Shown: piece by piece, positions 2,298 through 57,900 of the stretch
How the letters are laid out: each line of letters starts with the position of its first letter
Numbering within the stretch: the stretch's first letter is position 1
Origin: Dysidea avara
Lineage: Eukaryota; Porifera; Demospongiae; Dictyoceratida; Dysideidae
NCBI RefSeq assembly: GCF_963678975.1
Contig: NC_089274.1
Location: forward strand, 45,414,075-45,478,074
Direction of reading: 5' to 3'
Length of the DNA: 64,000 nt
The notes under the pieces: model-generated
Databases searched by the model: none
Told to the model about the DNA's origin: nothing
Seen by the model: the letters and a program-made list of their open reading frames with translations, nothing else
Made by a program: the position numbers and the translations under genes

Positions 2298-3330
2298 ATG
2301 TCTACAAAGAACGCTGCATCTCCAAGTAAGCAGAGAGGTGTTGACAGGAAAAGGCATGCTAATTTTACCCCACTCAATTCTAAGAAACAAAAGGACAAGA
2401 ACAAAGAAACTGTAACTGAACCAGAGGATATATGTGCTGTGTGTGACGAGCCAATTTTAGAATGGTCAGAAACTAGTGATGGACAGGAGGCTATATTTTG
2501 CGAAGGCCGTTGTAATGCCTGGATGCACCGTAAATGCAGTGGACTATCTTCAACCTTATTTGATATCCTTAGTAATGAATCGAAAGAACCTTACCGCTGT
2601 TGTCACTGCATTTTTACACATCAAAGAGATGAAATTAACATCCTAAAACAACTTGTTGAGTCTTTGACTGAAAAAATTTCTAGCTTGGAATCCAACAACT
2701 CTATCACGTCCAACTCAACTTCCAAAACTCCGAATTTAATAGAAGCTAACCACTCCATCACAACTTCTGAAACTCCAATAAGTAATCATAATCACCTTCG
2801 TACTCCTCTCTCCGGTCTTGTTAAACCTCCCAAGGCAAAATCTGATAAACGGTTTAATGTGGGTCATGTATGGAATTAAAGAATCCCAACCAAACAGTTC
2901 ACGAGCCACTAGACTAAAACATGACATGGAAGCCATGCAAAATGTGCTTACTAATATTGATCCTGCTCTCTCTAAGTCATCTATTAGGGATTTCCATCGA
3001 CTAGGAAAATACAATACCTCCAATCCAAAACCCAGACCTATATTAATTAAATTTCTTCACACTTTTGATGCAACATCTGTCTTATCTAAAAGATCCTCAG
3101 TACCAAGACCAATTCTAATCAAACCTGTCATGACCAGAGAAGAAAGAGCAATCGAAGCAGTCTATCTGAGAACAAGGTGGCAATTAGCTCAGAATGGCAC
3201 TGACAAGAATTTTGTCAAGCTAAGAGGAAACAACATTTATGTCAACATTTATGTCATCTTTGGCACAATTGAAAGGTCCAGCAGCACAGAATCATATGTA
3301 ATGACTCCTATTACTACCAATGATCATTAA
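2298..3330 (+). pseudogene. Non-LTR retrotransposon ORF1 (PHD finger), frameshifted
   Basis: The first frame, 2298-2879, encodes a basic N-terminus, a PHD-type zinc finger (first CxxC at about residues 46-49, CEGRC followed by WMHRKC, and a closing CCHC near residue 101), then a coiled coil starting near residue 110. At 2861-2863 an extra G throws the frame; the conserved continuation (VMYGIKES, then a basic RRM-like region around ATRLKHDMEAM) is read in the next frame to 3330. PHD plus coiled coil plus nucleic-acid-binding C-terminus fits ORF1 of CR1/L2-like LINEs. No endonuclease or reverse transcriptase follows, so this copy is dead and internally deleted. Confidence 0.75.
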
Positions 3331-10037: not shown

Positions 10038-10824
10038 ATCAAGACACACGGTAGTGTGTCGTGCGGCCCAAGAAGCCGGCGCGTAACACCCGTGAGTATA
10101 TTGACAGGAAGAAAGAAAACGCAATTTTCGCACCTCCGTAGCTCTGTGCTTCCTTGATGAAACAAGACGATTTTTGCTGTGGACATGCCCCCCAACTGCA
10201 GCACTCCACATTCCAAATTTGAGCGAAATCGCTTCGCGCGTTCCCGAGATATTCGACTTCAAAAATTGGCTCAGTTTCTTCGTTTTTTTTTTCTTCTTAT
10301 TTTTCTTTTTCTTGTCGCACACTTACAAAAACTGCTATAAAACTCGCACGCCATATCCGATTGCCTTGAAATTTGGCACACAGAAGGGGGATATAAAGGC
10401 GCATCTCTGTACCAACTTTGGCTGGAATACGACAAACAGGCAAAGAGTTATGAGCGATTATTCACGAAAAATAACACCAATATGTTGTCACGCCTACAGG
10501 GTAAACCGCGTATGGGAAGAAGCTGAAAATCGGTGGGTGAATAGGTTAACTATTGAACCTCAAACCTTTTGTGGTTTGAAAGAAATCGAGCTAAAAACCA
10601 GGAAGATACAACGAAAAAACCAACAGTGTGTAACAATTACGCAATCGAGATTAGTTAATAAAAAACGACTGCTTGCCACGCCTACCACTTGGGGTAATGC
10701 TTTGAAAATCGCTGTACAGATGGAGTTATCATCTTAGAAAGGCTCTTCAATGGTGTAGAAGAATCAGACTTAAAACCACGGAGTTATAACACGAAATCCA
10801 ACTTAGTGTAGCAAGTGCGAGATC

Positions 10825-16854: not shown

Positions 16855-19800
16855 ATCAAGACACACGGTAGTGTGTCGTGCGGCCCAAGAAGCCGGCGCG
16901 TAACACCCGTGAGTATATTGACAGGAAGAAAGAAAACGCAATTTTCGCACCTCCGTAGCTCTGTGCTTCCTTGATGAAACAAGACGATTTTTGCTGTGGA
17001 TATGCCCCCCAACTGCAGCACTCCACATTCCAAATTTGAGCGAAATCGCTTCGCGCGTTTCCGAGATATGCGACTTCAAAAATTGGCTCAGTTTCTTCGT
17101 TTTTTTCTTCTTCTTATTTTTCTTTTTCTTGTCGCACACTTACAAAAACTGCTATAAAACTCGCACGCCATATCCGATTGCCTTAAAATTTGGCACACAG
17201 AAGGGGGATATAAAGGCGCATCTCGGTACCAACTTTGGCTGGAATACGACAAACAGACAAAGAGTTATGAGCGATTATTCACGAAAATTAACACCAATAT
17301 GTTGTCACGCCTACAGGATAAACCGCGTATGGAAAGAAGCTGAAAATCGGTGGGTGAATAGGTTAACTATTGAACCTCAAACCTTTTGTGGTTTGAAAGA
17401 AATCGAGCTAAAAACCAGGAAGATACAACGAAAAAACCAACAGTGTGTAACAATTACGCAATCGAGATTAGCTAATAAAAAACGACTGCTTGCCACGCCT
17501 ACCAGGTAAACCGCTTGGGGTAATGCTTTGAAAATCGCTGTACAGATGGAGTTATCATCTTAGAAAGGCTCTTCAATGGTGTAGAAGAATCAGACTTAAA
17601 ACCACGGAGTTATAACACGAAATCCAACTTAGTGTAGCAAGTGCGAGATCGAGATACTCTAATAGAGCAGTCATCCTAATAGAGCAGTCATCCTAATAGA
17701 GCAGTCACCCGAAGAGAATTCAAGAGATCAGCTAGAAACAAGTAACCTGTATAGAGATCAGCTACAAACAAGCCACCCTGTAGAGAGATCAGCCACAAAC
17801 AATTCACCCTGTAGAGAGATCAGCTAGAAGAAGTTACCTTGTAGGGAATTCATGCAACTATAGAAAGAGATAATTCAGCTAGAAGAAATCACCTTGTAGA
17901 GTTCAGCTACAAAGAAACCACAATGTAGAGAGTTCAGATACAAAGAAACCACCATGTATAGAATTCGTTTACAAACAAGTCACCCTATAGAAAGATCAGC
18001 TAGAAGAAGTTGCCTCGTAGAGAGTTCAATTACAAAGAAACCACCATGTAGAGAATTCATTTACAAACTAGTGACCATGTAGAGACATCAGCTAGAAGAA
18101 GTTACCTTGTAAAGAGTTCAGCTACATAGAAACCATTCTGTAAAGAGCTCAGCTGCAAACAAATCACCTGTACAGAATTCAGCTACAAACAAATCACCCT
18201 GTAGAGAGATCAGCTAGAAGAAGTTACCTTGTTGATAGTTCAGCTACAAAGAAACCATCATGTAGAGAGTTCAGCTACAAACAAATCTCCCTGTAGAGAG
18301 ATCAGCTAGAAGAAGTTACATTGTAGAGAGTTCAGCTTCAAACAAATCACCCTGTAGAAAGATCAGCTACAAACAAATCTCCATGTAGAGAGATTAGCTA
18401 GAAGTTACCTTGTAGAGAGTTCAGCTACAAAGAAACCATCATGTAGAGAGTTCAGCTACAAACAAATCTCCCTGTAGAGAGATCAGCTAGAAGAAGTTAC
18501 CTTGTAGAGAGTTCAGTTTCAAACAAATCACCCTGTAGAAAGATCAGCTAGAAGAGGTCACCTTGTAGAGAGTTCAGTTACAAAAAAAACCACCATGTAG
18601 AGAGCTCAGCTACAAACTAGTGACCTTGTAGAGACTTCAGCTAGAAGAAGTTACCTTGTAGATAGTTCAGCTACAAAGAAACCATTCTTTAAAGAGCTCA
18701 GCTGCAAACAAATCACCTGTAAAGAATTCAGCTACAAATAAATCACCCTGTAGAAAGATGAGCTAGAAAAAGTTACCTTGTAGAGAGTTCAGTTACAAAG
18801 AAACCACCATGTAGAGAATTCAGCTACAAACTAGTGACCCTGTAAAGACATCAGCTAGAAGAAGTTACCTTGAGAGAGTTCAGCTACAAAGAAACCATTA
18901 TTTAAAGAGCTCAGCTACAAACAAATCACCTATATAGAATTCAGCTACAAACAAATCACCATGTAGAGAGATCAGCTAGAAGAAGTTAACTTGTAGAGAG
19001 TTCAGCTACAAACAAATCACCCTGTATAGAGATCAGCTAGAAGAAGTCACCTTGTAGAGAGTTCAGCTACAAAGAAACCACCATGTAGAGAGTTCAGCTG
19101 CAAAGAAATCACCCTGTATAAAATTCTGCCACGAACAAATTGCCCTGTAGAAAGATCAGTTAGAAGAAGTTACCTTGTAGAGAGTTCAGCTACAAAGAAA
19201 CCATTCTGTAAAGAGCTCAGCTGCAAACAAATCACCTGTACAGAATTCAGCTACAAACAAATCACCCTGTAGAGAGATCAACTAGAAGAAATTACTTTGT
19301 AGAGAGTTCAGCTACAAAGAAACCACCATGTAGAGAGTTCAGCTGCAAACAAATCACCCTGTAGAAAATACAGCCACAAACAAATTGCCCTGTGGAAAGA
19401 TCAGTTAGATGAAGTTACCTTTTAGAGAGTTCAGCTACAAAGAAACCACCCTGTATAGAGATCAGCTAGAAGAAGTTACCTTGTAGAGAGTTCAGCTACA
19501 AAGAAACCACCATGTAGAGAGTTCAGCTGCAAAGAAATCACCCTGTAGAAAATTCTGCCACAAACAAATTGCCCTGTAGAAAGATCAGTTAGAAGAAGTT
19601 ACCTTTTAGAGAGTTCAGCTACAAAGAAACCATTCTGTAAAGAGCTCAGCTGCAAACAAATCACCTGTACAGAATTCAGCTACAAACAAATCACCCTGTA
19701 GAGAGATCAGCTAGAAGAAATTACCTTGTAGAGAGTGAAGCTACAAACAAATCACCCTATTGAAAAATCAGCTTGTAGAAGTCACCTTGTAGGAAGTTCA

Positions 19801-26231: not shown

Positions 26232-27722
26232 GTAGGGTCCGCAATCCGAAAAATCAACTTCTACAAATCAATCCCCCTACCATTGTGGGATGTTCATTGT
26301 AGTATCCCATTGCTTGATCCACCATGAAACCGGAGGCATGATTGTTGTCTTCACAGAAATATCGTTTTCAGTATCTCGGAAGATGCAAAATTTATTTTTT
26401 AAATTTCGTGCTCCACTCAAAGGACCGGATGAAACTTGCTACTTAGCCAAATCGTATCCAGAGTTGTTGCAGTTGAAAAGTACGTACAGAAATAAGTAAA
26501 TGATGTGCTGGGTGCCCGGCACAGGGTTGTTTTCTTTGAAAAAACAGACAAAGAGATACGAAGTTTCGAATTCAAACTGCCCTACCACCCAGGGCAAGAG
26601 AAGCCAACTCTTCCTCATAGTGTTTCAATACGGTTGGGTGCATAGTCTGTCTATGCTGTTAGTTTGGAAAAGATCTGAGACTTCTCACCATCTGGGTGAC
26701 GAGCGTCAAAATTTTCTGCAGCATCTAAGAGTTGTGTCGCGCTTTCTAGCCATTTCCAGCGCTTCTGCAGCCACAACAATCATCAATTATAAACTAAAAC
26801 TATGGCAAAAGATGTACCTGAACGTTTGGTAGCAGCGGTTGTCAATTATTATTTCATCCACGGCTTCCACGCCTCGCTCTAAGCTATGCATCAAGGGAGG
26901 CAGCAAAATCGTCCAAATTTGACTTCACCCCTCACGCTCCACAGCAGCTTCAAGTTTTCAATAGATCACCCTACATCACCATTATGCTGCAAAACATCTA
27001 AAAACAAACCGGAAAAAGCATAAAATCTTTCATTTTTGATTCGAGCTGGGTGGAGCTCCTGGTGAGCTGCTGGTATACTGCATCATATGAAATCACAGAA
27101 ACTCCAACTACTACTACTACCAAACGTTTTGATCCATCATTTATCATCATTCTAAACAAAATTAAGTGACCAGTGTGGCATCAGAAGTACTGGAAAGCAC
27201 TTTGGTACCATTGAGAGAATCCCTTGAAATGACGCACGAAAATTTTGACGTTCTTCACCCAGATGGTGAGAAGTCTCAGATCCTTTCCAGACTAACAGCA
27301 TAGACAGACTATGCATCCAACCTTATCACATCACTATGAGGAAGAGTTGGCTTTTCTTGTCTTGGCTGGTAGGGCAGTTTGAATTCGAAAATTTGTGTTT
27401 TGTTTTCTGCTTTTTGAGAGAAAGCAACCCTGTGCCGGGAACCCAGTGAACCATTTGCTTATTACTGTGCGTACTTTTTAACTACATTAACTCTAGATAA
27501 AACCTAGCTAAGTAGCAAGTTCTATCCTGTTCTTTGTGTGGAGCACGAAATTTAAAAAATAATTTTTGCATCTCACGAAATACTAAAATCAATATTTCTG
27601 TGAAGACAACAATCGTGCCTCCGGCTTCATGGTGGATCTAGCAATGGGATACTACAATGAACAACCCACAATGGTAGGGGGATCGATTTGTAAAAGTTGA
27701 TTTTCCGGATTGCGGACCCTAC
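26232..27722. mobile_element. 1.49 kb foldback element with ~480-bp TIRs
   Basis: Ends GTAGGGTCCGCAATCCG and complement. The inverted arms run roughly 26232-26720 and 27235-27722 with scattered mismatches, around a ~510-bp centre. The target TGTAG is duplicated at 26227-26231 and 27723-27727; copies 1 and 2 of the host element show the uninterrupted site (CCTACAGG near 10493 and 17311). Open frames inside the left arm (to 110 codons) match no family I know. It is probably a non-autonomous element with long TIRs, MULE-like or Foldback-like; class uncertain. Confidence 0.85.
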
Positions 27723-28239
27723 TGTAGGCATGACAACATATTGGTGTTAATTTTCGTGAATAATCGCTCATAACTCTTTGCCTGTTTATCGTATTCCAGC
27801 CAAAGTTGGTACAGAGATGCGCCTTTATATCCCCCTTCTGTGTGCCAAATTTCAAGGCAATCGGATATGGCGTGCGAGTTTTATAGCAGTTTTTGTAAGT
27901 GTGCGACAAGAAAAAGAAAAATAAGAAGAAAAAAACGAAGAAACTGAGCCAATTTTTGAAGTCGCATATCTCGGAAACGCGCGAAGCGATTTCGCTCAAA
28001 TTTGGAATGTGGAGTGCTACAGTTGGGGGGCATGTACACAGCAAAAATCGTCTTGTTTTATCAAGGAAGCACAGAGCTACGGAGGTGCGAAAATTGCGTT
28101 TTCTTTCTTCCTGTCAATATACTCACGGGTGTTACGCGCCGGCTTCTTGGGCCGCACGACACACTACCGTGTGTCTTGATAACTGGTTATATGGCACTAT
28201 ACTAATATACATAGTAGCAGTCATGTTAATCAGTATTAA

Positions 28240-29382: not shown

Positions 29383-29498
29383 TTGAGGGTAGACCAGGTA
29401 TTTCCACTTCATGTCAATTGTACAGACAACACCCTTGTGTTATGTGTACGCTACATACAAGTAGCTTATTATATGAAACACTACGCTGCCATATAAAA
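29383..29498 (+). promoter_or_regulatory. Promoter of Reeler gene 1
   Basis: TTGAGGGTAGACCA (29383-29396) and CAGACAACACCCTT (29423-29436) are shared with the other two Reeler genes, followed by a TATA box ATATAAAA at 29491-29498, 55 bp before the ATG. Confidence 0.7.
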
Positions 29499-29545: not shown

Positions 29546-31115
29546 ATGGTAAGTGTCTCTATAGTTGCAAATGTGAGCTCTCAATACTTTTTGTAGGCTA
29601 AGTACTTGGTACAATGCCTTGTTGTCAGTTTATTGTTAGTAACAACTGCCCATGGTCGACCAGAAGGAGCACCACCTGAAGCCTGTGCTCAGATTGCTCC
29701 AATGCATGCTGGAATTTCTCCATCTACTGATCCATTACCATACAGTGTAGATCTCAGTGATTTCACTGGAGATGAATATGTTCCTGGAGATACTTACCAA
29801 AGTAAGACATCTACAAATAATGTTCCTATACTTGTTGTGTTATTTGTCAGTGTTAGGTATATGTAGTTATTTACAAATAGTATTATACTGCCTCTTATCT
29901 ACTTTTGCGTAGTAACACTTTCAGGAGGTGCAGACAATCCTAATTTCAGAGGGTTTTTGATACAAGGAAGAGTAGCAGCTGATGGATCACCAACTGGCCA
30001 GTTTACTGGCTCAGCTGGTGTCTCACAACCACAATGTGATGGAGATGTAAGTCATGTCTGAAAGATATACCAGTTACTCTAATAACTGTATCTATAGACA
30101 GCTGTTACCCATGTGAACAACAATGAGAAGACTTCAGTCACAGTTATGTGGACTGCCCCAGCTGCTGGCACTGGTGCAGTTATCTTCAGGTACATAGAGC
30201 AGATAACATGTCAGTAAAGTGTATCAGCAGTCTATTTAGATTTGCATTTGTGGATATGTTTGTTCTATTCTGGGCTAATATGGAGACATCTGCAATACAA
30301 GAAGGTACTGAGATCAGTGCTGTAGCTATGTAGGGATCATTATGTAGTTTAATGTATACACAGCTGCACCACCTACTACTGAACCAACTACAGAGCCACC
30401 AACTGACCCTACAACAGAGCCACCAACTGACCCTACTACAGAGCCACCAACTGACCCTACTACAGAGCCACCAACTGATCCTGGTCCAACTCAACCACCA
30501 AACTGTGGAGACATAACTGGTGCGTACATATCTATATAATTTTATGGCAAGAGACCACAGAATAAATGTTCTTCACCATCTACACTAAACTGATATTCAT
30601 ATACAGCTTATTACATTAGTCTTTTAACATTAGGTCTGCCAGAATGTACTGAAAAGCTTTGTAGGCGTCGCAGTGGTTCATATGGATATAGGTTCCAAAG
30701 ATGTTATGTGTAAGTGATATGAGATTATGCTTATCTACAATTCAGAGATGGAATTATCTTTCCTTGTACATAGCGTCAAGGATTCTTGTGGAAACAGATG
30801 CCAGATATCAAACTGCTTAAAGTGCTACTATGAAAGAGTGCGAGTAAAGCAACCAACAAGACCTCGTTGTGAGCCATGTGGCAAGAGGTCAGACAGGCAG
30901 TGCTGGTACAAGTACTATCAGTGTCGTTACAAGTATTCTGGATACTCCGTGAGTCTTTTGATTGTGGTATATCAGTTGACCCTTAGCTAATATGAGATAA
31001 ATACTTTTTCTTAAACTATACACAACCAATATCTAAGTAAATCTGTTGTTTACAGAGGCACCAATACTCATACAAGAGAGTATTCAAGTGCACTACTCGT
31101 TTCAGATGCCACTAG
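29546..31115 (+). CDS. Reeler-domain secreted protein 1
   Basis: Nine exons: 29546-29548, 29597-29801, 29913-30046, 30098-30189, 30240-30304, 30364-30519, 30634-30709, 30774-30948, 31056-31115; 966 nt, 321 residues. Exon 1 is only the ATG. Exon 2 gives a signal peptide (about residues 1-21, core [14 protein letters not shown]). Residues ~22-166 are a Reeler domain: [16 protein letters not shown], then [26 protein letters not shown] and FVLFWAN. A short linker of TTEPPTDP repeats follows. The last ~110 residues hold 14 cysteines in a basic, Tyr-rich tail ([20 protein letters not shown]). Reeler domains occur in extracellular matrix and insect immune proteins; the tail is unfamiliar to me. No membrane anchor. 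Function unknown: matrix, adhesive or defence roles are possible. Confidence 0.88.
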
Positions 31116-31460
31116 AATTTTAAGAGTGCCAGGACTGTCAGTATGATGGATTGTGTGAAACTGTTTCTAAATAAGCATTACAAGTTGTGTAGTCACGTAT
31201 TTAGTTATTGTTATTGTAGTTGTAGCTCAAGCCACAAGTACATATATACGTCGTAGTTTCCAGTAACCCACTAATGCACAGTTGGATGATGCAAGTACAC
31301 ATACATCACAGCTTATGTATGTTTCCTAGCCAGCTGTTCAGTATAAATATTTCTATAGAATTGCTACCGGACCATTACTGAGTAATAAGCTAGACAATCC
31401 CAACCACATGCAAACAATGCATGACCTATGCTGAATTCTGTAGCTGTAAATGTAAGCAGC

Positions 31461-31537
31461 ATGAACAAGAGGACTGTACTAACACAGTAAGTACAAACAA
31501 GTACGTACTTAGTACAAAGTGTTCATGCATTGCAGAG
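31461..31537 (-). pseudogene. Relic of the last DOMON-b561 exon
   Basis: Read on the minus strand, TGCATGAACACTTTGTACTA and TTGTTTGTACTTACTGTGTT align with the intact last exon (within 41963-42201) of the DOMON-b561 gene. The frame is lost and the rest of the gene is absent. It sits ~350 bp behind Reeler gene 1, the same place relative to the Reeler gene as the intact exon behind Reeler gene 3. Confidence 0.65.
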
Positions 31538-32757
31538 GGGAATTAGGAGATTCAGCATACATGAGGGTTACTTCTTTACTAGTCTGTCACTACCATCCTA
31601 ACTTAGCTATAATATTAGTTATGCAAGCTTACATTCCTATAATGAGTTGTCTAAATAGTATCAACATGATGGTACTAATTTAGTGTATACAACACCAAGC
31701 CTAGAAACCTTCCAACTCACAGGAAAACTATAGTACTAAACATTGATAACCTTGTTATTAAGTGGAGATCTACCAGAATATAATATTGAATATTGCACAA
31801 TCACAGACTACCGAGCATTCATAAAATGCTGTAGGTCTAGAAACCATACCAATACCAACTTATAGTACAGTTCCTCTATTCAGGACACCCTCTACTTACT
31901 ATGTAAATAACTGCATTATATGGGCAGAGGCAGCTAATTTGAAGGCAGGGTTAAGCCTTACCACCTAGCAGTAGTACATATAATATGCAACACTCCAGTG
32001 GAACTAAATTTTAATAGCTGACAATAATAATTATTTAATGTGGTAATGCTTTCACTGTCCGCATAACAATTAAAAGCTCAATTAACAGTTTGCAAGTCTT
32101 GTCAGGCTTGCATCTACTACTACTAATAACCAAGACTAGAGTCTACACTTCTGACTACTGCACAGTAATTGAAATTAGCTATCCATTCATAAAATGTTGG
32201 AGTGATGCTATTCTGAACATCTGTTACTAATATAGTATCCAGCACAAGATTATTAGCATAGCTGACTACTCTACCGACATAATGTAGATCTTCATTGTCA
32301 AATACCTGCTACTAAAATAAGTTATGTGTGTCTGTGATCACCTACTGGGACATATTTTAAGGTTAATATATATAATTATATCAAAAGCTTTTATCAGCAT
32401 TCTATAAGTATCCAGTGATTTAAACTGATGAAGAAGCAGGATTAACCATAGTTGTGCTGCCAGGCAAAGGTGGTGTGTATTTTCAATTTGTTGACTCATT
32501 TGTCTACATGCTGGAAAAAATTGTAAGGAATCTAGGAATATCTCTGCAGAAAAGTTGGAAAATTTACCCTTCTCAGGTTGAATTTGGTAACAATCTGAAA
32601 GAAAAAAAAATTTAACAAGCATTGTGAGGCTCTGCATGATGATCATTTATAATCAGCTGCAGTTCTATAATGGTTCTTCTTTTGGATGAAAATCGGGAAA
32701 TTGAAGGGATGGTGTACTTTAAGGGTTTTATATGCAACCAGTTACTTGCTATCACTT

Positions 32758-32790
32758 CTGACTGTTTTATTAGAGTACATGACTGTTGTA
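32758..32790 (-). repeat. Isolated CTCTAATAGAG-type motif (diverged)
   Basis: CTGACTGTTTTATTAGAGTA with a second GACTG after it, one mismatch in the palindromic core. No recognisable transposon surrounds it. Confidence 0.6.
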
Positions 32791-33079
32791 TTCTGAGCAA
32801 CTATTTAACTATTTAGAATATCATTTAAATTTGTGATTATAATCATTACGTGTACAACTATACTCATTTTGAGATCTGTATATTAAAAATAAATAAATAC
32901 CTTAAACAATTAAAATAACAGCAAAGCAACCTTTAAACTTTAGTTTCAATGATCCTAATAATATGATCACTTTAACAACTAGTTTATATAGCTACTAACT
33001 CTGAAAAGCTAGCAAATGATATGCGGCAGCTTAATATTGCTACAGATCCCATAGTGGTTAGTCGATAAACTAATTTAAA

Positions 33080-33360
33080 AAAAATTAAAAATATGGGAAT
33101 AGTGTTGAAAAAAGAGTCAAACAAGCCAGCATGTTAAACACACACAGATATCTATTTGGACTTAATATGTATATGCAGCGACTAAAAAAAAACATAAATT
33201 ATGAGCAGGTACTGAGAATGTTTCTGTATTAATGTTTTAAGTCCAAATAGAGATTTATGTGTGTTTTACATGCTCAGTGACTTGTTTAACTATTGTTTCT
33301 TTTGTTTTTAGGCAATTTCTATGTTTTTAGGCAATTTCTATTTCCCATATTTAATTTTTA
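33080..33360. mobile_element. Foldback element, ~280 bp
   Basis: The left arm (AAATATGGGAATAG, GTCAAACAAG, TGTTAAACACACA, ATTTGGACTTAA) is mirrored on the right (TTAAGTCCAAAT, TGTGTGTTTTACATGC, CTTGTTTAACTATTG, CCCATATTT). A TGTTTTTAGGCAATTTCTA block is tandemly duplicated in the right arm. Diverged arms of the same family lie at about 34385-34440 and 34770-34825. Confidence 0.75.
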
Positions 33361-33591
33361 AAAGATCATTATACACTAATTTGTTTACATTTTATAAATC
33401 CATTTATGGATAGCTATAGTGTTGGTGGTGCTTGTTATATATTAAGTATGGGGTGCCAAAGTGGGCAAAAATTCAAATACTATACAAAGACACAGTAAGG
33501 CTGTCTGCAAAATATATAATTACTGTGCATATTCTCTCATTATTATGCCTTCTCATCTCTACTTTACTGATGGCTATAATGCTCTCAATTT

Positions 33592-34135
33592 ACACATGTT
33601 TCAAAGTTTTGCACATGTTGTTTTTCAATTTGAAGTTTTGTTAATGTTCTTTCTCAATAATTTGGAGTTGTGTAGCTACAGGTTGTCTCTCAGTCTGAGC
33701 TGTGTACATGTCATAGGGTTACTGTGAATGGAGAGACAACATGTACAAAACTTCAAAAATTGAGGGACAACATGTACAAAACTCCAAATCGACAGACAAC
33801 ATGTACAGAACTTCAAATTGAGGGACAACATGTACAAAACTCCAAATCGACAGACAACATGTACAAAACTTCAAATGGAGAGACAACATGTACAAAACTC
33901 CAAATCGACAGACAACATGTACAAAACTCCAAATCGACAGACAACATGTACAAAACTCCAAATCGACAGACAACATGTACAAAACTCCAAATCGACAGAC
34001 AACATGTACAAAAAACTCCAAATCGACAGAAAACTTCAAATTGAGAGACAACATGTACAAAACTTCAAATCAACAAAGAACATTTACAAAACTCCAAATC
34101 AAGAGACAACTAGTACAAAACTATAACTATATGCA
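33592..34135. repeat. 29-bp minisatellite with an orientation switch
   Basis: From 33726 to ~34135 a 29-bp unit (core GACAACATGTACAAAACT, CCAAATC joints) repeats about 14 times. Immediately before it, 33592-33700 contains diverged units in the opposite orientation (ACATGTTGTTTTTCAATTTG, CAATAATTTGGAGTTGTG). Three plus-strand frames and one minus frame run through the array; 29 is not a multiple of three, so they are artefacts. Confidence 0.85.
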
Positions 34136-34139
34136 AGAA

Positions 34140-36250
34140 AAACCATAAAATGTCAATGATATTCCATCTTACATGTTCATTTGGAAACTATATGCCACTG
34201 CTTGACTTATTGTGATCACTTACTTATCAGAACAGAATGAAGCCTTGATGTCCAATGATTGAAGCCTTGATTGATTTGATGTATACATGATTAGTTACTG
34301 TGTGGTATCAAGCTCCACCTTACCCATAATTGGATTTATAAAAAGAACAAACTCATGCTTCCATAAAAATAAATTTTACAAAAATATTGCTGAAATAAAC
34401 AAATATAGAAACAAGAGTCAGCATGTTAAACCTACAATGACTTCAAAGTGAAATTGTCACACTATGGTATATACAGTTATACATGTAGCTAGGAGAATGT
34501 GTTGTATAAATTAAGTGTTGCAAACACTTCTGTGTAAACTGAAGTATACCACATTTTACTTTAGACATGGCAAAGACAGCTACTGATGCGTATATATTAG
34601 CCACAAATATGGGATTATCTCTGTATACTCATCAACGTATCCAATATTATATGTCTCACCATCAGACAGGGTATGACTCATGTATGATAGAGATCTGCAG
34701 GTGTTAAAATTAAAAGTGTCAGGCTTTAAAGGGTTTGACATGCTCCATTTTAGTCCTAGAGCAGTTTAACAAGCTGATGTGTTTGACTCTTGTGTTTTCA
34801 ACAATCTCTATTTCTCATATTAACTATACGGTACTGCACAGTTCTCTGATATAGCGCTGTGGTGGTAGCAAGAGTTCTTATGAACTATTGATTGTAGCTC
34901 CCAAAATATCTCATAGCTCATTCTTGTATGCAGGGCGTAAACTAACAAATCATTTGACAATTTAATTGTAGTTTCGTTAATCCAGTTAATGATCCATTTG
35001 TAGCCAACTCTTATTGGCTTTCTTGATGAAGGTGAGGTCCATTATTACATGACATGTGTTGTAACTATACAGTGGATAATCAGATCTATTACCAGTAAAG
35101 AATAAAGATTAGACTACATTTATATAATTACTGGCATAGCTACAAACAATAGGTGTATATGTAAAATAATAAAATTTAAGTTAGCCTGGCCAATATGAGA
35201 ACTCATGGACAACATTATCTACGTACCATGTATGCAAGATATCACATTAGGTTACAATGCAAACTGCACTTCAACTAATAGCCTGTAGTATTGTTCACTC
35301 AATTCAACTTAATATACTAATTGAATAGTCAAAAAGTGGCTTCATATGAAATATGTTTCTAAAAGTAGCTTTACAAAGAAAACAGCGTTGGCTAAAGTTG
35401 GAAAGCCATCTGACTTTCAATCTATATACTTTACCAAGTACCCCCAGACTTATTTTCCTGTTTGTAAATGCAGTGTGTGTAGTATTATAATAACACTAAA
35501 ACTATTGCCAAAATTTTAGATATCTAACTGCAGTTAGCATACCAATTTCTCTAGAAAAGTTGATGTCAATGCGTACCTCAAAATATACGTAGCTACAACT
35601 CAAACTGGTGAACTTTGAGACATCATGAAAACTGACATGACTACAGCTTCTGGTTCCAAAGAATCTCAGTATATTCTATGTCCTGTTCAGCGCTCTCACA
35701 TCAACATTTGTGACACAATGATGTTGTAATGTTTATGCATTATCATATTGAATTAACTAGCTATACAAACTACACAAGTTCATGAATGTAGTAAACCTTT
35801 GTCTGCCAAATTACATGGTCTGTGACTTTTGTCACTTACAATATATGGAATCCAGGAGTTGGCATGAGAACGGGCTCTACACTTGATGTTCCATTTAGTT
35901 AGTTCATGTGTGGCCTGCTCTCACAGGTTACTTATTTAATTAAACTAAACCATCAACCCATCACCATTACACTACAGTGCAGGTCGAGTTGAGCTAGCTA
36001 AATGCATTGTGTCATTATATTGAATTGTTAATGTCATTCATTCATATCTATCATAAATGCAATATAATGCTGAATAGCTGCAGAAGACAAATTGTTTAGT
36101 AGTGTTGGCATAACATTTGCACTTGCTCATGCATGTAGCTACAAGTTAACTAAATTACCTAATTTAGTTACTAATCCTGCATGATAAATGATGTAACACA
36201 GCTAGGCTCATTACTGAATATCAATATATGATTGTGAAATTAATGATCTC
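34140..36250. other. Spacer before Reeler gene 2
   Basis: AT-rich with foldback remnants (34385-34440, 34770-34825). No coding exon was recognised. Confidence 0.5.
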
Positions 36251-36258
36251 ATTATGAA

Positions 36259-36371
36259 TTGAGGTTAGACCAATCATTTCCATTTGATATCAATTCACAG
36301 ACAACACCCTTGTTTTATTTGCATACTACACATAGCTTCTGATATGAAACTCTGATAATGTCCATATAAAA
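36259..36371 (+). promoter_or_regulatory. Promoter of Reeler gene 2
   Basis: TTGAGGTTAGACCA at 36259-36272, GACAACACCCTT at 36300-36311 and TATA box ATATAAAA at 36364-36371; ATG 53 bp after the TATA. Same order and nearly the same spacing as gene 1. Confidence 0.72.
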
Positions 36372-36416
36372 CAGCTGCCATTCTACAGTGGTTCAGTTCT
36401 TACATTAAAATTTACA

Positions 36417-38291
36417 ATGGTGGGTGCTGTCTTTATCAATCTGACATGTTGAGTTCAATTTTTTGTGTAGGGCATGTATATGGTGGACTGTTTTGCTGTT
36501 ATTTTGCTGCTGGTGACTACTGCCCATGGTCGACCAGAGGGAGCACCACCTGAAGCCTGTGCTCAGATTGCTCCAATGCATGCTGGAATTTCTCCATCTA
36601 CTGATCCATTACCATTCAGTGTGGACCTCAGTGATTTCACTGGGGGTGAATATGTTCCTGGAGATACTTACCAAAGTAAGAAACATTCACATCAGTATAA
36701 TTGTATTTACTATAGTACCAGGAAACTATAATGCTATTTCCATTAAAATATTATCTGTCTAATTCCTGCTACTAGTGTATAGCTAATACCTGTTTTTTCT
36801 ACAACAGTAACACTTTCGGGAGGTGCAGACAATCCTAATTTCAGAGGGTTTTTGATACAAGGAAGAGTAGCAGCTGATGGATCACCAACTGGCCAGTTCA
36901 CTGGCTCAGCTGGTGTCTCACAACCACAATGTGATGGAGATGTAAGTTATGTCTGAAAGATATACCAGTTACTCTAATAATTGTATCTATAGACAGCTGT
37001 TACCCATGTGAACAACAATGAGAAGACTTCAGTCACAGTTACGTGGACTGCCCCAGCTGCTGGCACTGGTGCAGTTATCTTCAGGTACATAGAGCAGATA
37101 ACACTTCAGTAAAGTGTATCAGCACTCTATTTAGATTTGCATTTGTGGATATGTTTGTTCTATTCTGGGCTAATATGGAGACATCTGCAATACAAGAAGG
37201 TACTGAGATCAATACTGTGGCTATATAGGGATCATTATGTAGTTTAATTTATACACAGCTGCACCACCTACTACTGAGCCAACTACTGAGCCAACAACAG
37301 AGCCTACTACTGAGCCAACCACAGAGCCAACTACTGAACCAACTACAGAGCCAACAACTGAGCCTACTACTGAGCCAACTACTGAACCAACTACTGAACC
37401 AACTACAGAACCAACAACAGAGCCAACTACAGAACCTACTACTGAGCCCACCACAGAGCCAACTACTGAACCAACTACAGACCCAACTACAGAGCCAACT
37501 ACTGAACCAACAACAGAGCCAACTACAGAGCCAACTACAGAGCCAACTACTGAGCCAACAACAGAGCCAACTACAGAGCCAACTACTGAGCCAACTACAG
37601 AGCCAACAACAGAGCCTACTACTGAACCAACAACAGAGCCAACTACAGAGCCACCTACTGATCCTACAACTGATACAACGCAACCACCTACACCATCGCC
37701 AGAGCCAACACCTGGTCCAACTCAACCACCAAGTTGTGAAGACATAACTGGTATGTGTATAATGTGTAGTAGGCGATTTAATGTATGGTATAATAATATC
37801 CATTATGTGTAGGTCTTCCTGAATGTAGTGAAGCGTTTTGTAGGCACCACAGTGGGTCATATGGGTATGGATACAGAAGATGCCATGTGTAAGTGATTGG
37901 GGATTGTACCTACCATCATCAAGGTGGAATTATTGGAGTTTCCATGTCTTGTAGTGTCAAGGATTCCTGCAGAAACAAGTGTCAAATATCAAAGTGTTCA
38001 TTATGTTACTATGAAAGAGTGCGAGTAATTCAACCAACAAGACCTCGTTGTGAGCCATGTGGCAAGAGGTCAGACAGGCAGTGTTGGTACAAGTACTATC
38101 AATGTCGTTACAATTATTATGGAACTTATGGACACTACGTGAGTATTTACTATTGTGGTGTACAGTTCAGCATTTATCCTGTTATTCTCTTGTCAAATTC
38201 TCTCTTTCTTTTACAGAGGCAGTATTACTATCAGAGTTCTTACTCTTACAAGACAGTGTTCAAGTGCTCTACTCGATATGGATGTCATTAA
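36417..38291 (+). CDS. Reeler-domain secreted protein 2 (long linker)
   Basis: Exons 36417-36419, 36471-36675, 36808-36941, 36993-37084, 37135-37199, 37259-37750, 37813-37888, 37955-38138, 38217-38291; 1326 nt, 441 residues. Exons 2-5 have exactly the lengths of gene 1 (205, 134, 92, 65) and encode an almost unchanged Reeler domain after a signal peptide ([13 protein letters not shown]). Exon 6 is expanded to 492 nt and encodes about 35 repeats of TTEP with few variants, a mucin-like, likely O-glycosylated acidic spacer. The tail keeps all 14 cysteines and gains NYYGTYGHY plus [10 protein letters not shown], making it very Tyr-rich. The antisense of exon 6 gives a long open frame that is only an artefact of the repeat. 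Confidence 0.9.
37259..37680 (+). repeat. Coding TTEP minisatellite
   Basis: 12-bp units ACTACTGAGCCA/ACAACAGAGCCA run in frame through exon 6 of Reeler gene 2. Third-position mixing among ACT/ACA and GAG/GAA, with the peptide held constant, points to selection on the protein. Confidence 0.9.
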
Positions 38292-39695
38292 ATTTATCTG
38301 TTATATGACTGATTGTGTGCAACTGTTTATATAATTGGCAATATAAATACATTGTAGTATCTATTGTACAGATTGTGCAAATGCTCAATGATAGATATAT
38401 AGTTTGTACAAGAGTGAACATCATCATATACATCTTAAATTCTATGAAAAATTGAACACATTCACAAAAAGGTTGATCCCATGATGATGATAATATTATA
38501 TGCATGTAACTTAGTGTGGAAAAACGTAATAAGCTCGACCTCTAGACCTTGAACCATGGTTTACTCTATCAAAATTTATAATGCATGTAGAGCTGTACTT
38601 GTTTGGGACAAAACTCATTGCTCGTATTACAACATTTTTTTACTGAGCTCTCAAGTAAGTGACAAACATTTAGCATAACCAAGAGTATAATAGGTAAGGT
38701 CACCATTAGTATACTAATTATCGCACTGCAACAACTATATAAATGAAAATGCACCAAACATTCCAGACATAGTAACCACATTGAGTATGTACAATACATT
38801 TATGCACTGAAAAGGTCTATAGCTACAACCAAAGGTTCGTGTATAGCTAATATAAATATATTACAAGCTCTTGCTACAAGTGACTCAAGTTGAAAGACTA
38901 CATGTGTACATCCTTTTACTCAGTATATATTATGGTTCATAAAGTAGCATGAATACTGTGCTATAGGCACGTGCCTGGAATGTAGTATCAGATATTGAAG
39001 GCAACATGCTTATTTTGGTAGCTATCAAACAGCCTTTATTGATGATGGGCATGTATGTACATGCGCTCTGTTTTCAGCTGCATGTCTGCAAGGTAGTAAT
39101 AATTATGCTATTTATTGTAATTATATTTGTCTTTATAAGGTGAAAAGCAAACATTTAAATTAATCAAAACTGAATTACAGTATTAATATATACAGGCACT
39201 TTGTGGTCTAATGCATGCATGACAGAGTTACAAAGCACATTACTCCAAACATGATTGATATCTACATGAACTTTGCATTTTCAGTTTATAAAATCAGAAA
39301 TCAAGACAAGAACTTAATGATAGAGTGTCCCATTGCCAATACAGCCTTACAAGTGGACTGAGTCAAGTACCTCAGCTGATGCTATCGATTGATAAGACTA
39401 ACCCTTAAATCTGATTGAGTCTTTCCTGAATAATTTATGTGACATGCACTCCCCCTTACTTTTTGATCAGCATGCATGGATACTTATCCACAAGCCACTT
39501 TATTTATGCATGCATGTATGATTATGTAGTGAGCACGTTAACCTGTCAATTTTTTTGCTTATCAACACTAGTACTATTGGCACAATATTTGCACCATTTC
39601 ATGCAATAATTACTAACATGCATGCATGATGAATGAATGATGTAACACACTCATGTATCATGTATATATCATGATGTTAAAGATCTTATTAGGAC
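38292..39695. other. Spacer between Reeler genes 2 and 3
   Basis: Contains a DOMON-b561 exon relic (38731-38795). Otherwise AT-rich without supported features. Confidence 0.5.
38731..38795 (-). pseudogene. Second relic of the last DOMON-b561 exon
   Basis: On the minus strand, GTGGTTACTATGTCTGGAAT followed by GTTTGGTGCATTTTCATTTA aligns with GTGTTTACCATGACCGGACT and GTTTGTTGCATTTTTATTTT of the intact last exon. Frame lost, no other exon found. It lies ~440 bp behind Reeler gene 2. Confidence 0.7.
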
Positions 39696-39776
39696 TTGAG
39701 GTTAGACCATTTTAAGTAAATCGCACTGACAACGCCCTTAGCTTTGTGGCTAACACCCTGCTGCACTCTATATAAA
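39696..39776 (+). promoter_or_regulatory. Promoter of Reeler gene 3
   Basis: TTGAGGTTAGACCA at 39696-39709, GACAACGCCCTT at 39728-39739 and TATATAAA at 39769-39776; ATG 64 bp after the TATA. The spacing between upstream block and TATA is ~30 bp shorter than in genes 1 and 2. Confidence 0.7.
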
Positions 39777-39832
39777 AGCAGATGCTACCATAACAGTAAG
39801 CTTCAGTTGCTACTGCAAAATCCCTAGCTACA

Positions 39833-41455
39833 ATGGTAAGTGCTTTCTGGCTATCAATATACCTCTGATTACTGTTTCTTGTAGGTCATGTATAAAGTGT
39901 GCTGCTTTGCTGTGATATTATCACTGGTGACAACTGCCCATGGTCGACCAGAAGGAGCCCCACCTGAAGCCTGTGCTCAGATTGCTCCAATGCATGCTGG
40001 AATTTCTCCATCTACTGATCCATTACCATACAGTGTAGATCTCAGTGATTTCACTGGGGGTGAATATGTTCCTGGAGATACTTACCAAAGTAAGACATCT
40101 ACAAATAATGTTTCTACTTGTTGTGTTATTTGTCAGTGTTAGCTATATGTAGTTATTTACAAATAGTATCATACTGCCTCTTATCTACTTTTGCATAGTA
40201 ACACTTTCAGGAGGTGCAGACAATCCTAATTTCAGAGGGTTTTTGATACAAGGAAGAGTAGCAGCTGATGGATCACCAACTGGTCAGTTCACTGGCTCAG
40301 CTGGTGTCTCACAACCACAATGTAATGGAGATGTAAGTCATGTCTGAAAGATATACCAGGTACTCTAATAACTGTATGTATCTATAGACAGCTGTTACCC
40401 ATGTGAACAACAATGAGAAGACTTCAGTCACTGTTACGTGGACTGCCCCAGCTGCTGGCACTGGTGCAGTTATCTTCAGGTACATAGAGTAGATAACACT
40501 TCAGTCAAATTTATTTGCACTATTATTTAGATTTGCATTTGTGGATATGTTTGTTCTATTCTGGGCTAATATGGAGACATCTGCAATACAAGAAGGTAGA
40601 CCAATGTAGCCATTAAAGATTATGTATATACAGTACATGTGTGTGGGTGCATAATTATTATGATAAAATTTATGTAGCAGCGCCACCTACTACAGATCCA
40701 CCTACCGATCCTACAACAGAGCCTACAACAGACCCTACGACAGAGCCACCTACTGACCCAACTACAGAGCCACCCACTGATCCTACTACAGAGCCACCTA
40801 CTGACCCTACAACTGATACAACACAACCACCTACACCATCATCAGAGCCAACAGCTGGTCCTACTCAGCCACCAAGCTGTGAAGACATAACTGGTATGTA
40901 TATATAGTTGTCAATTTGCAATACACCAACTAATTGTACAGTATACCATATAGTGTAGCTGCACCATAAAATCTGGTCCATGTTAATGTTGTAGGTCTGT
41001 CTGAATGCTCTGAAGAGTTTTGTAGGCGGTACAGTAGGTCATATGGATATGGGTACAGGAGATGTTATGTGTAAGTGACTACATACAATGTATACCTATC
41101 ATCAATACAGTGATGGAATTATTGGAGTTTCCACGTCTTGTAGTGTCAAGGATTCCTGCAGGAACAAGTGTCAAATATCAAAGTGTTCATTATGTTATTA
41201 TAAAAGAGTGCGAGTAAATCAACCAACAAGACCTCGTTGTGAGTCATGTGGCAAGACATCAGACAGGCAGTGCTGGTACAAGTACTATCAGTGTCGTTAC
41301 AATTATTATGGAACTTATGGACGCTATGTGAGTATTTATGTAGTTTTTCTTTTGTAACATTCACACAAATTGTTTCACAGAGGCAGTATTACTATCAGAA
41401 CTCTTACTCTTACAAAAGAGTGTTCAAGTGTGCTACACGATATGGATGTTACTAA
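39833..41455 (+). CDS. Reeler-domain secreted protein 3
   Basis: Exons 39833-39835, 39885-40089, 40199-40332, 40388-40479, 40531-40595, 40678-40893, 40995-41070, 41144-41327, 41381-41455; 1050 nt, 349 residues. Signal peptide with core CFAVILSLVTTAHG, Reeler domain nearly identical to genes 1 and 2 (CNGD replaces CDGD at the end of exon 3), a linker of TTDPPTDPTTEP repeats ending in [11 protein letters not shown], and the 14-cysteine tail ([36 protein letters not shown]). The acceptor of exon 6 is taken at TAG|CAG because that keeps the AAPPTT start seen in the other copies. It converges with the DOMON-b561 gene; the stop codons are ~510 bp apart. Confidence 0.9.
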
Positions 41456-53932: not shown

Positions 53933-54790
53933 TTATTTATTTGACCACACTGGTTGTCGCTTAGCTACGAAAGCTTCAATGCCTTCTTGTCCATCAACAA
54001 ATCCAAGATTGTGAACCATAGTTCCTTCAGCCAGTTGGTAGGCTTGATTCCTATTCATGTTGATCTGCTGATAAAAGCATGCCTTTCCCAGACCAATAAT
54101 TGCACTACTTGAATTGCATATCTTTGTCGCAATTTCCATCGTCTCTTCTTCAAGCTTGTCCTCTGGAACTACATGACTCACAAGTCCGTGGAGAAGTGCA
54201 TCTTGGGCTGATATTGGGTCTCCAGTGAACAGCATTTGTAGGGCCTTCTTTCTGGGTACAGCTCTGGATAGTGCCACGCCGGGTGTTGAACAAAATAGAC
54301 CAATTTTTACACCAGGGGTTGCAAATTGAGCTTTATCTGAAGCTACTGCTATGTCACAACTGGCTACAAGCTGGCAACCAGCAGCTGTAGCCAGTCCTCT
54401 GACTTGAGCAATAACTGGTATGGGTATGTCTTGAATTAGTTGCATTACCTCTGAGCACTTGTGAAATATCTGCTGGTGAAATTCTTTGCCATTTTCACTA
54501 AGTAGTTCCTTGAGATTGTGGCCAGAAGAAAACACCGGTCCTTCAGAATTAACAATAATTACTCTGGTGCCTTTCTTATTTGCAAGATCCGCGAATTCTT
54601 CTTTTAGCTGGGAAAGCATGTTGAACGACAAGGCATTCCTTTTCTTTGGATCATTCAATGTCAGATATGCTATTCCATCTTTAGGGAAGCTTCTTTTAAC
54701 CAGCTCAGTAGCTTCAGAGCTTGAAATTGAGGCTGAAAATCTGTGTCGTAGCAATACAGTACTCCTGACTTTTCTGATAAAGACGGCCAT
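53933..54790 (-). CDS. ECHDC3: Enoyl-CoA hydratase domain-containing protein 3, mitochondrial
   Basis: Single-exon frame of 285 residues, close to the ~300 of vertebrate ECHDC3. A basic, Ser-rich N-terminus (MAVFIRKVRSTVLLRHRFSA) looks like a mitochondrial presequence. The crotonase fold is clear: LTLNDPKKRNALSFNML near residue 43, the oxyanion-hole strand FSSGHNLKEL near 87, then QVRGLATAAGCQLVASCDIA near 128 and ATPGVKIGLFCSTPGV near 157. ECHDC3 is a crotonase-superfamily protein of unsettled substrate, linked in mammals to lipid handling and insulin response. The last codons AAT AAA TAA place a polyadenylation hexamer across the stop. It ends 151 bp before the DOMON-b561 start (same strand) and diverges from XRN2. 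Confidence 0.95.
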   Translation of the reverse strand: MAVFIRKVRSTVLLRHRFSASISSSEATELVKRSFPKDGIAYLTLNDPKKRNALSFNMLSQLKEEFADLANKKGTRVIIVNSEGPVFSSGHNLKELLSENGKEFHQQIFHKCSEVMQLIQDIPIPVIAQVRGLATAAGCQLVASCDIAVASDKAQFATPGVKIGLFCSTPGVALSRAVPRKKALQMLFTGDPISAQDALLHGLVSHVVPEDKLEEETMEIATKICNSSSAIIGLGKACFYQQINMNRNQAYQLAEGTMVHNLGFVDGQEGIEAFVAKRQPVWSNK

Positions 54791-54986
54791 TTCACCTTAA
54801 CTTAAGTCCTACGATATTTTACGGAATTTTGTTGATACTTACTGGTGCGCTATATTAAGAAACAGTGGTGTGGTGGACTCGTTGTGGAGGGCACTGCAGA
54901 AGATTAAGTATACTGTCTCTTATCTGAAAATGTATCACGTATAACTTCCCGAGTGAGTCGCATTATACGTTAGTTCAGCTGGGGTG
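54791..54986. promoter_or_regulatory. Divergent ECHDC3/XRN2 promoter region
   Basis: Only 196 bp separate the two start codons. No TATA box is obvious in either direction, as expected for housekeeping genes. Both 5' UTRs must fit here unless 5' exons are missed. Confidence 0.7.
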
Positions 54987-57900
54987 ATGGGAGTTCCCGC
55001 CTTTTTTCGTTGGCTATCCAAGAAGTACCCTTCAATTATAGTCCATTGCGTGGAGCAGAAGGTGATGGGTGTACTGCCATGATGTAAATATGAGTATGTG
55101 CTGTGTTTGTAGCGCAAACTAGTCGGTGGTGTAAAGATTCCAGTTGATGCCTCTCAGCCAAATCCCAATGATGTAGAATTTGACAATTTGTATTTGGACA
55201 TGAATGGAATTATCCACCCATGTAGTCATCCGGAAGACAAGGCAGCTCCAGAGAATGAGGAAGAAATGTTTATTGCCATTTTTGAATACATTGACAGGTA
55301 TGCACTCACATACAACACAAATATACACTGCTGCACTTGTGCATCTGTGCTATGCCATAACACTATCGTCAAAGTGTTGGATAAGGTAAATTTTAGGGAT
55401 GTGTCCGTAGTTGAGCCTTTTCCAGTTTAACTGTGTAAGTAATCTGTTCATGTATCAAATTGGCCAATAGTCACCATTTAATCAGTCAGTGATAGCATTC
55501 ATACTGAGGAGGTTAGACATGTTTTAAGTGCCACTAAAACAAATTACACATAATTTGATCTATTGAGGAGGGTAGCATGTCAATCTCAGTATAATGCAGT
55601 GAAGCATCACTGTTTTGTTTATAAAATACGGACATGACAAGTCTGGTGAAGCTATGTGCACCAAACTGTAATTTCATCCAGAACTCAAGCGATTTTTAGA
55701 AAACAAAATACATTGCCTTGAAGCTTGCGTGAAGTCAGATCTAAATATCTAACAAATCCCAGTGAACCCCATCATTGTATTGCGACTATTGAGGGTCACG
55801 GGAAATACCTAATACAACATCCAGTGGTTGTTGGTGTTCTTTGGAATACAATCATTGTGCTGTTTTGTTGTAGGATTTTTAACATAGTACGACCAAGGAA
55901 GCTTCTTTACATGGCCATTGATGGAGTAGCTCCAAGGGCCAAAATGAACCAGCAAAGGTCAAGACGTTTCCGTGCTGCAAAGGAAAGCCGAGACAAAAGA
56001 GAGGACATCAAAAAGATACGAACTGAATTGATAGAAAGAGGTAAATACACACTGTTCTTAAAAATCAAATGTTTCTCTTGCATCAATAGGTTGTCAGCTG
56101 CCACCTGAAAAATCTTCAAGTTCCCACTTTGATAGCAATTGCATTACACCAGTGAGTTAACCGTCATGTAATGTCATGTGATATGTAAATTCAAATACGT
56201 ATTTGAAGTTTGATGCAAATTTTTTGTCATTTTTGACAAATGATATCTCAATAGCTGTGATATTCAACAAACAATATTATGAAGTTACTAAATGATGCAA
56301 AAAATATGTTAAATGGTAATCTAGTTCTGCTTACCTGCAGAAAAAGATAAAAGCCAGCTTTGGTGCTTGCATATACAAATACAAAAAGAAATGATATCTA
56401 ATCCAAAACAGCCTAGCAATGAAAAAGGTTGCCACCTTTAATATCACATCTTTACCAATTTTTGAAAGGCTGCACCCCTTTTTTCACAGCTTGGCTGAAT
56501 CATTTCAGCCATTTCTTGGCTGTCACCTTTGATATCATCCCTTTTCACAGCTGGGCTGTTTGGATTAGATTTTCTTATTGCCACAAACCAGGAAAATAGA
56601 CCATCAAAACATTCATCAGTCATATACCGTATAGTCTAAATATTTTGAGGGGGGGGGGGAATTTTCAGTGATTTCGCAGTTTTGGGTGTTATCAGCGAAA
56701 TTTTACCCTTGAAATGTTTTGACCTCCATATAGCCTAATACATTTTGGGAGTGTTTGCTAATCCGCAGAAATTTTATTTTCAGCAACATTGCTTAACCTT
56801 GAAATATTTAGGCTATACGGTAATATGTGACCGAATTTTGGAAAACCGTCAATATACGCACATCAGTACTTTTGTAATAAAACGCACTTAAAAACTATGG
56901 GTAAAAAACGCAAGCTCCAGAAAAAAATTATGCAAGTTTTTATTGCCTCGCTGGTGGGCGAATTAAGCCACCAATGAATAAATCCTGGGTATCATTGTGT
57001 TCGCCTGTCCATGGGGAGTACAAAAATCTTTGTTTCATCTCCATACACGAAAAGATTCCAAAGTTACAGATGCTTGTTTACGTTGCGGTGACGAAAGAAT
57101 TTACCTAGGATTGTTTTTCAGTGAATTTGCCTTCCTTCTCGAACAAAGAAGCATGCCCGGGGAAACAACTATACCTTGGTGGATGCACAAATTCATGGCG
57201 AACACAATGAGCCAAGATTCAATTCCGTATGTCGTTGTATCAGTAAGTTATGATGGTTTATGTAAGCGCCTGTAGATTCTTTTCTCGATAGCTTCTGTAC
57301 ATATCAAATTATTTGCTCGTCCGGATGTCTAGTGCTGTATTTCCAACGCTGCTTAACTTAGGAAGCTGAAACTTGGCTAGTCCATTCCTCTGTCACTGTA
57401 GAAAACAAAGAACAAATAAAATGCATTTTGAAAATTGTGCGGATATCGACGGTTTTCTAAAATTAGGTCACATATGTTGATGAAATTTAAAACAATGAAT
57501 TCTTTTCTAATCAAAAGATGCCATCCAGAAGAGAGTTTGGTTGACACTACTGGGCTATAGCTAGTTCCATCGCAATTTAGTAGGGAACATATCCTTTTTT
57601 GTAGAGGCTTTTTTGTTTACACAAGCAAATTACTTCACAGTTTTTCGTATTTAATTTTCTTGCTGAAACATCTTGCTTTATAAATATTTTTTTTTTTAAA
57701 TCCAATCCACAAAGATGATGACTGTCTTTTTTTTTTACTACTGAATCCGGCGCATACTCAATTATTATTTAGTATATAGCTCCTTGAATTTCATTCCATA
57801 AAAAAAATCAATTTGTCACTATACTATATTTCAGGGAATGATATTATTTTTATTTTACATATATCTAGGGCACAGACTTTATGGCAAACTTGGCTGCTGC

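Follow-up and report, generated by a model that had tools for sequence, protein, structure and literature searches.

Described Reeler proteins (Pfam accession PF02014) include the N-terminus of F-spondin and proteins of insects, ticks and shrimp. A sponge counterpart is provided by Calcarin 16 (Cal16) of Sycon ciliatum, one of 17 calcarins, which combines a signal peptide, a Reeler domain and a cysteine-rich region (PMC12419799). Here we analyse three tandem genes, termed A, B and C, in a 64,000-nucleotide stretch of DNA (the window, G000:C3:45414075-45478074) from a genome of 550.8 Mb (~551 Mb) in 108 contigs. The three genes share with the described Reeler proteins a head that is also represented by Spondin-1 Reeler chains in the PDB, and they differ in a Thr/Pro/Glu stalk and a cysteine- and tyrosine-rich tail that, in the literature covered, are not described for known Reeler proteins. 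Calcarins carry 10-23 di-cysteines, whereas no CC pair occurs in the tails of A, B and C; for Cal16 this comparison draws on the published description only (PMC12419799). By these comparisons the three genes are a new domain combination on a known Reeler head, not a new system. An initial annotation of this DNA had called the cluster a candidate for an undescribed system, which is too strong a term for a new C-terminal module on a familiar head.

Three nine-exon genes share a head, a stalk and a tail

Exon models rebuilt from the sequence place genes A, B and C head to tail on the plus strand (Table 1). Each gene has nine exons, the first of which is the ATG alone, and a frame that stays open from ATG to stop. 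All introns are of the GT-AG type (24/24), and the series of intron phases (0,1,0,2,1,1,2,0) is common to the three genes. The encoded proteins run in the same order through a signal peptide (judged by eye), a Reeler domain, a Thr/Pro/Glu stalk confined to a single exon and a tail spread over three exons, with the end of exon 6 in gene A coding for the first tail cysteine. Splicing is predicted; because the three copies agree in exon order and intron phases, we assign the tail exons to the Reeler genes, of which they are part as far as sequence can tell.

PF02014 is matched in gene A at residues 31-156 (E 2.2e-25, 90.1 bits), in the first 174 residues of gene B, used as the query (E 6.3e-26, 91.9 bits), and in gene C (E 1.3e-25, 90.8 bits), where the curated cut-off of the family is 21 bits. 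Searched against PDB sequences, the head returned three matches, all of them Spondin-1. Matches to Melibiase_C within the heads of B and C were sub-threshold (E 0.08 and 0.19) and were set aside.

The stalks, built of Thr/Pro/Glu repeats (TTEP/TTDP) that are encoded by in-frame DNA repeats in each gene, measure 47, 159 and 67 residues in A, B and C. In all three genes the linker exon is symmetric, with a phase-1 intron on either side, and an exon of this phase-1/phase-1 kind is a classic setting for exon shuffling. The initial annotation had listed three tandem nine-exon genes, each with a Reeler domain, a Thr/Pro/Glu repeat linker and a basic tail of about 110 residues with 14 invariant cysteines. 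The rebuilt models and the tail alignment described below bear out this architecture, including the placement of the tail exons in these genes. Its count of three genes holds for the window, and the cluster also contains a damaged fourth copy that lies outside it.

The tail is a constrained module that the searched libraries do not name

Counted from the residue ahead of the first cysteine, the tails are 109-117 residues long and have a pI of 9.1-9.6. All 14 cysteines are kept in A, B and C, at spacings of 8, 4, 13, 6, 3, 4, 2, 14, 2, 7, 6, 27 (19 in A) and 5, so that a single interval differs, being 8 residues shorter in A. None of the 14 cysteine columns varies, compared with 33 of the 109 gapless columns (P 0.004 under a random spread). 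Tyrosine is abundant as well, with 13, 19 and 22 residues (12, 16 and 19%) in the tails of A, B and C. For the tail, dN is 0.07-0.15 and dS is 0.32-0.63 (dN/dS ~0.2), and dN falls below dS in all three gene pairs. Because dN is well below dS, the tail is constrained as coding sequence, and the three tails diverged under purifying selection.

Profile and sequence searches returned no name for this region. Pfam contained no family for the tails of B and C or for the whole of A at E up to 1, and still none for any tail of the three genes when the limit was E 10 (HMMER filters on). The tail of B, queried against NCBIfam with a limit of E 1, gave no family, and neither this tail nor a three-row tail profile matched a PDB sequence with a limit of E 10. 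A search for internal duplication of the tail yielded a best self-match that was equalled in 147 of 300 shuffles. The open-access literature covered on Reeler proteins of sponges and of matrix describes no such tail. We thus regard the tail as a constrained module, named by none of the libraries searched (Pfam, NCBIfam and PDB sequences), which agrees with its first description as a domain without a name.

Two known families were considered as the identity of the tail and rejected. The tail holds a DRQ-W-like run that we take to resemble a dermatopontin motif, and dermatopontin, a matrix protein, is likewise tyrosine-rich and disulfide-rich. Profile comparisons gave no match. A genome scan with the dermatopontin family (PF14704) found nine places, on contigs C11, C12 and C7 and clustered on C11 and C12, none of which is in the Reeler cluster. 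An hhalign comparison of the tail with six dermatopontin (DERM) frames of the same genome aligned four columns with a probability near 0, and hmmsearch with filters off against the six DERM frames returned negative scores. A galaxin-type tail was rejected on the absence of CC pairs from all three copies.

The tail was further searched against contig collections that are viral and prokaryotic and hold few animals. The viral collection contained 33 stretches with the tail pattern, none of which was confirmed. Among prokaryotic genome contigs there were 16, and the single one confirmed, a 28-column match in a bacterial metagenome-assembled genome (L001), was judged to be chance.

The tail was found in one cluster and Reeler heads at 36-40 places

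A six-frame search of the genome with the tail of B gave 20 matches at E up to 10, of which 12 fall in four loci, all belonging to this cluster. The other eight have E values of 0.05 or worse; the strongest of them (C10:22536959, E 0.05), the only one of the eight that was read, was judged to be chance because its cysteines are mostly unaligned and no gene context was seen. The tail thus seems to be restricted to one cluster of this genome. The fourth locus is an additional copy (D), 96-97% identical to gene A with introns included.

With a limit of E 1, a genome search with the head produced at least 99 matches at the level of exons. Merging those that lie up to 5, 3 or 2.5 kb apart groups them into 36, 38 or 40 places, the weakest of which may be chance, and many of the places sit in clusters. 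We read 20 Reeler regions besides the cluster genes, comprising the fourth copy and 19 others, each with about 5 kb of 3' flank. Within that flank, neither the tail (weak matches only, best E 0.62) nor a Thr/Pro stalk was found in any of the 19 (one region, L038, has a proline run on the opposite strand); tail exons lying farther out are covered, since the tail was also searched across the whole genome. The last head exon could be located in 12 of the 19 regions and was not found in the remaining seven. In all 12, a GT stands immediately after it or one codon on. The regions read are like A, B and C in the head and unlike them in what follows, with no TTEP stalk or tail.

Some of these genes are followed by other recognizable coding sequence. 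Coding 3' of the head matches ITI_HC_C in two regions (L031, L034) and Ig in two others (L044, L045), and a piece of L044 also matches TSP1. Read as candidate joins to the head, these matches suggest that C-terminal swapping has occurred repeatedly among the Reeler genes of this genome.

Within the cluster, head and tail appear to have had different histories. Reeler exons 3-5 (29913-30304, 36808-37199 and 40199-40595) differ between the genes by a dS of only 0.03-0.04, and the tail dS of 0.32-0.63 in the same gene pairs is about seven- to twentyfold higher. For intron 2, A shares 96% identity with C and 70% with B. Introns 4 and 5 show the opposite, A sharing 94 and 92% with B and 80 and 66% with C. 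The signal peptides have diverged like the tails and unlike the homogenised heads. A patchwork of this kind over Reeler exons 3-5 and the adjacent introns is consistent with gene conversion tracts. With head dS this low and the introns so patterned, the near-identity of the heads is by itself no evidence of strong selection.

A matrix linker is the favoured reading

We tentatively favour, at somewhat less than even confidence, the view that these genes encode secreted two-ended linkers of extracellular matrix or skeleton in a non-bilaterian animal, probably a sponge. The Reeler head would hold one partner, for which a sulfated glycan is the likeliest candidate. In F-spondin, the reelin_N domain has been reported to bind heparin (PMC3117680), and work on biominerals reports Reeler proteins in a sponge, with Cal16 of Sycon (PMC12419799), and in the skeletal proteome of red coral (PMC7853314). 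A flexible spacer between the two ends would be provided by the Thr/Pro/Glu stalk, which is probably O-glycosylated and changes in length by way of the 12-base minisatellite. The cationic tail, with up to seven disulfides, would anchor a second, acidic partner, and its tyrosines would be offered for coupling by haem peroxidases, locking the network. That the proteins are secreted, bind glycans, carry O-glycans, pair their cysteines in disulfides and have their tyrosines coupled is inferred, as are the tissue of action and the host group.

Candidate enzymes for the last step are present. Animal haem peroxidase (PF03098) has 44 matches in the genome, with 15 stop-free frames that cover profile positions 1 to 527-530. 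These frames are on C1, C7, C10 and C13, clustered on C1 and C7, and the domain has no intron break. Spongin contains halogenated di- and tri-tyrosines, the halogenated links having been reported from hydrolysates (PMC11906918). A tyrosine-rich tail and a set of peroxidases in one genome would be at most permissive for dityrosine cross-linking. The cross-linkable matrix or adhesive module proposed in the initial annotation is a candidate role. Should the tail prove to cross-link, it would offer a gene-level handle on matrix hardening in such animals.

A more specific version, which we regard as quite improbable taken whole, would make the tail an undescribed disulfide-stapled, tyrosine-donating module that arose or was captured in one sponge lineage. 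Reeler linkers would then be welded into the organic skeleton by haem peroxidases, and the tail would be a non-collagen source of the tyrosine in halogenated dityrosine links like those of spongin. In the literature covered, a dedicated tyrosine-rich protein partner for these links of spongin is not proposed.

Several observations weigh against the matrix linker. The tyrosine columns of the tail are less kept than the cysteine columns, with 7 of the 19 tyrosine-containing gapless columns varying, and a 10-residue stretch of the tail is intact only in B, has one residue changed in C and is absent from A; the many tyrosines named in the initial annotation are only partly kept, and the tail of A has 13 of them against 22 in C. 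The fourth copy carries an in-frame stop in the linker, and the splice donor that follows its Reeler exons reads AT and not GT; because of these two defects it is probably a recent pseudogene. Most spongin tyrosine is ascribed, in the source covered, to oxidised phenylalanine in collagens and to no tyrosine-rich protein (PMC11906918). The 44 peroxidase matches were counted in this genome alone. The parallel with Cal16 is loose because two demosponges are reported to lack galaxin-like sequences (PMC12419799). Finally, the case for a linker is built on sequence.

Defence, mucus and a young tail as alternatives

The main rival, a serious one that we nevertheless consider somewhat unlikely, is innate defence. 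Here the Reeler head would bind microbial surfaces, the cationic cysteine-rich tail would kill, clump or coat microbes, and the tandem copies would reflect an arms race. The strongly basic tail and the 36-40 Reeler places of the genome, many of them clustered, would suit such a role. Known Reeler proteins point the same way: a Reeler gene of the sponge Aplysina is reported to be differentially expressed after microbial signals (PMC6208332), recombinant shrimp Reelers to inhibit Vibrio growth (PMC12113285) and the tick protein PIXR to limit biofilm (PMC5543126). An arms race fits less well with heads that are nearly identical and with tails whose dN stays under dS in every pair and which, for that reason, give no overall sign of diversifying selection. 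To our knowledge, the usual small defensins also differ from this tail, which runs to about 110 residues and is 12-19% tyrosine. If the proteins do serve defence, a single genome would still be joining the same kind of head to differing C-terminal coding, including one module that the libraries searched do not name.

We rate as clearly unlikely that these are mucus or surface-coat proteins, in which a glycosylated stalk would dominate, the cysteine-rich tail would join chains by disulfides in the manner of mucin C-termini and tyrosine would be incidental. The Thr/Pro/Glu repeats might be O-glycosylated in the way of a mucin stalk, the stalk of gene B reaches 159 residues, and a tail with invariant cysteines and variable tyrosines is what this explanation leads one to expect. 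The stalks of A (47 residues) and C (67 residues) are nonetheless short, and the domains that link mucin ends by disulfides (vWD, cystine knot), or any other Pfam domain, were not found in the tail.

The tail might instead be a recent gain of one lineage through exon shuffling, with the Reeler head doing the work and no fixed role for the tail as yet. This would account for its four loci in one genome, the lack of a confirmed relative in viral and prokaryotic contigs (where animals are few), the symmetric phase-1 linker exon and the one broken copy in four, but we consider it very improbable given the purifying constraint and the retention of 14/14 cysteines at a tail dS of up to 0.63.

Cluster features and other observations

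Each gene of the window is preceded by a putative proximal promoter that includes a TATA-like ATATAAAA (Table 1); the upstream regions of A, B, C and D were aligned. The motif GACAAC[AG]CCCTT occurs at three sites only on the plus strand of the window, one ahead of each gene.

Table 1. Genes, stalk repeats and putative promoters of the Reeler cluster (window positions unless a contig is given)
Feature	Position	Strand	Description
Gene A	29546-31115	+	Nine exons, 321 aa; Reeler exons 2-5 (29597-30304), linker exon 6 (30364-30519), tail exons 7-9 (30634-31115)
Gene B	36417-38291	+	Nine exons, 441 aa; Reeler exons 2-5 (36471-37199), long TTEP linker exon 6 (37259-37750), tail exons 7-9 (37813-38291)
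Gene C	39833-41455	+	Nine exons, 349 aa; Reeler exons 2-5 (39885-40595), linker exon 6 (40678-40893), tail exons 7-9 (40995-41455)
Fourth copy (D)	G000:C3:45398683-45400274 (L030:2184-3775)		15.4 kb upstream of the window; found by the genome tail search
Gene A linker in-frame repeat	30378-30482	+	24-base unit, ~4 copies
Gene B TTEP stalk in-frame minisatellite	37270-37658	+	12-base unit ACTACAGAGCCA, ~32 copies
Gene C linker in-frame repeat	40686-40810	+	24-base unit, ~5 copies
Gene A putative proximal promoter	29425-29498	+	GACAACACCCTT (29425-29436), TATA-like ATATAAAA (29491-29498)
Gene B putative proximal promoter	36300-36371	+	GACAACACCCTT (36300-36311), ATATAAAA (36364-36371)
Gene C putative proximal promoter	39728-39777	+	GACAACGCCCTT (39728-39739), ATATAAAA (39770-39777)

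A tandem array lies between genes A and B (33727-34122). It consists of a 29-base unit, AATCGACAGACAACATGTACAAAACTCCA, with about 10 copies at 33727-34034 and weaker copies on to 34122.

Elsewhere in the window, the frames 10105-10737 (+), 16922-17509 (+) and 27652-28113 (-) are similar to one another, all start with QEERKRNFRTSVALCFLD and are probably a dispersed repeat; the first of them has no Pfam match. Frame 2298-2879 (+) has a PHD-finger match under the curated cut-off, and we take it to be perhaps retrotransposon-derived. Ordinary neighbours at 53933-54796 (-), 55722-56108 (+), 60326-60916 (+) and 6233-6625 (+) comprise an enoyl-CoA hydratase, XRN exonuclease exons (XRN_N, XRN_M) and a cadherin-prodomain-like exon.

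In the wider genome, a COX1-like nuclear stretch (L051) looks sponge-like and, read with code table 4, has AGR codons where arginine is conserved, which fits a non-bilaterian animal. COX1 has 21 matches over several large contigs, one of them nearly complete, including G000:C8:25954946-25956247, and these are probable nuclear copies of mitochondrial DNA.

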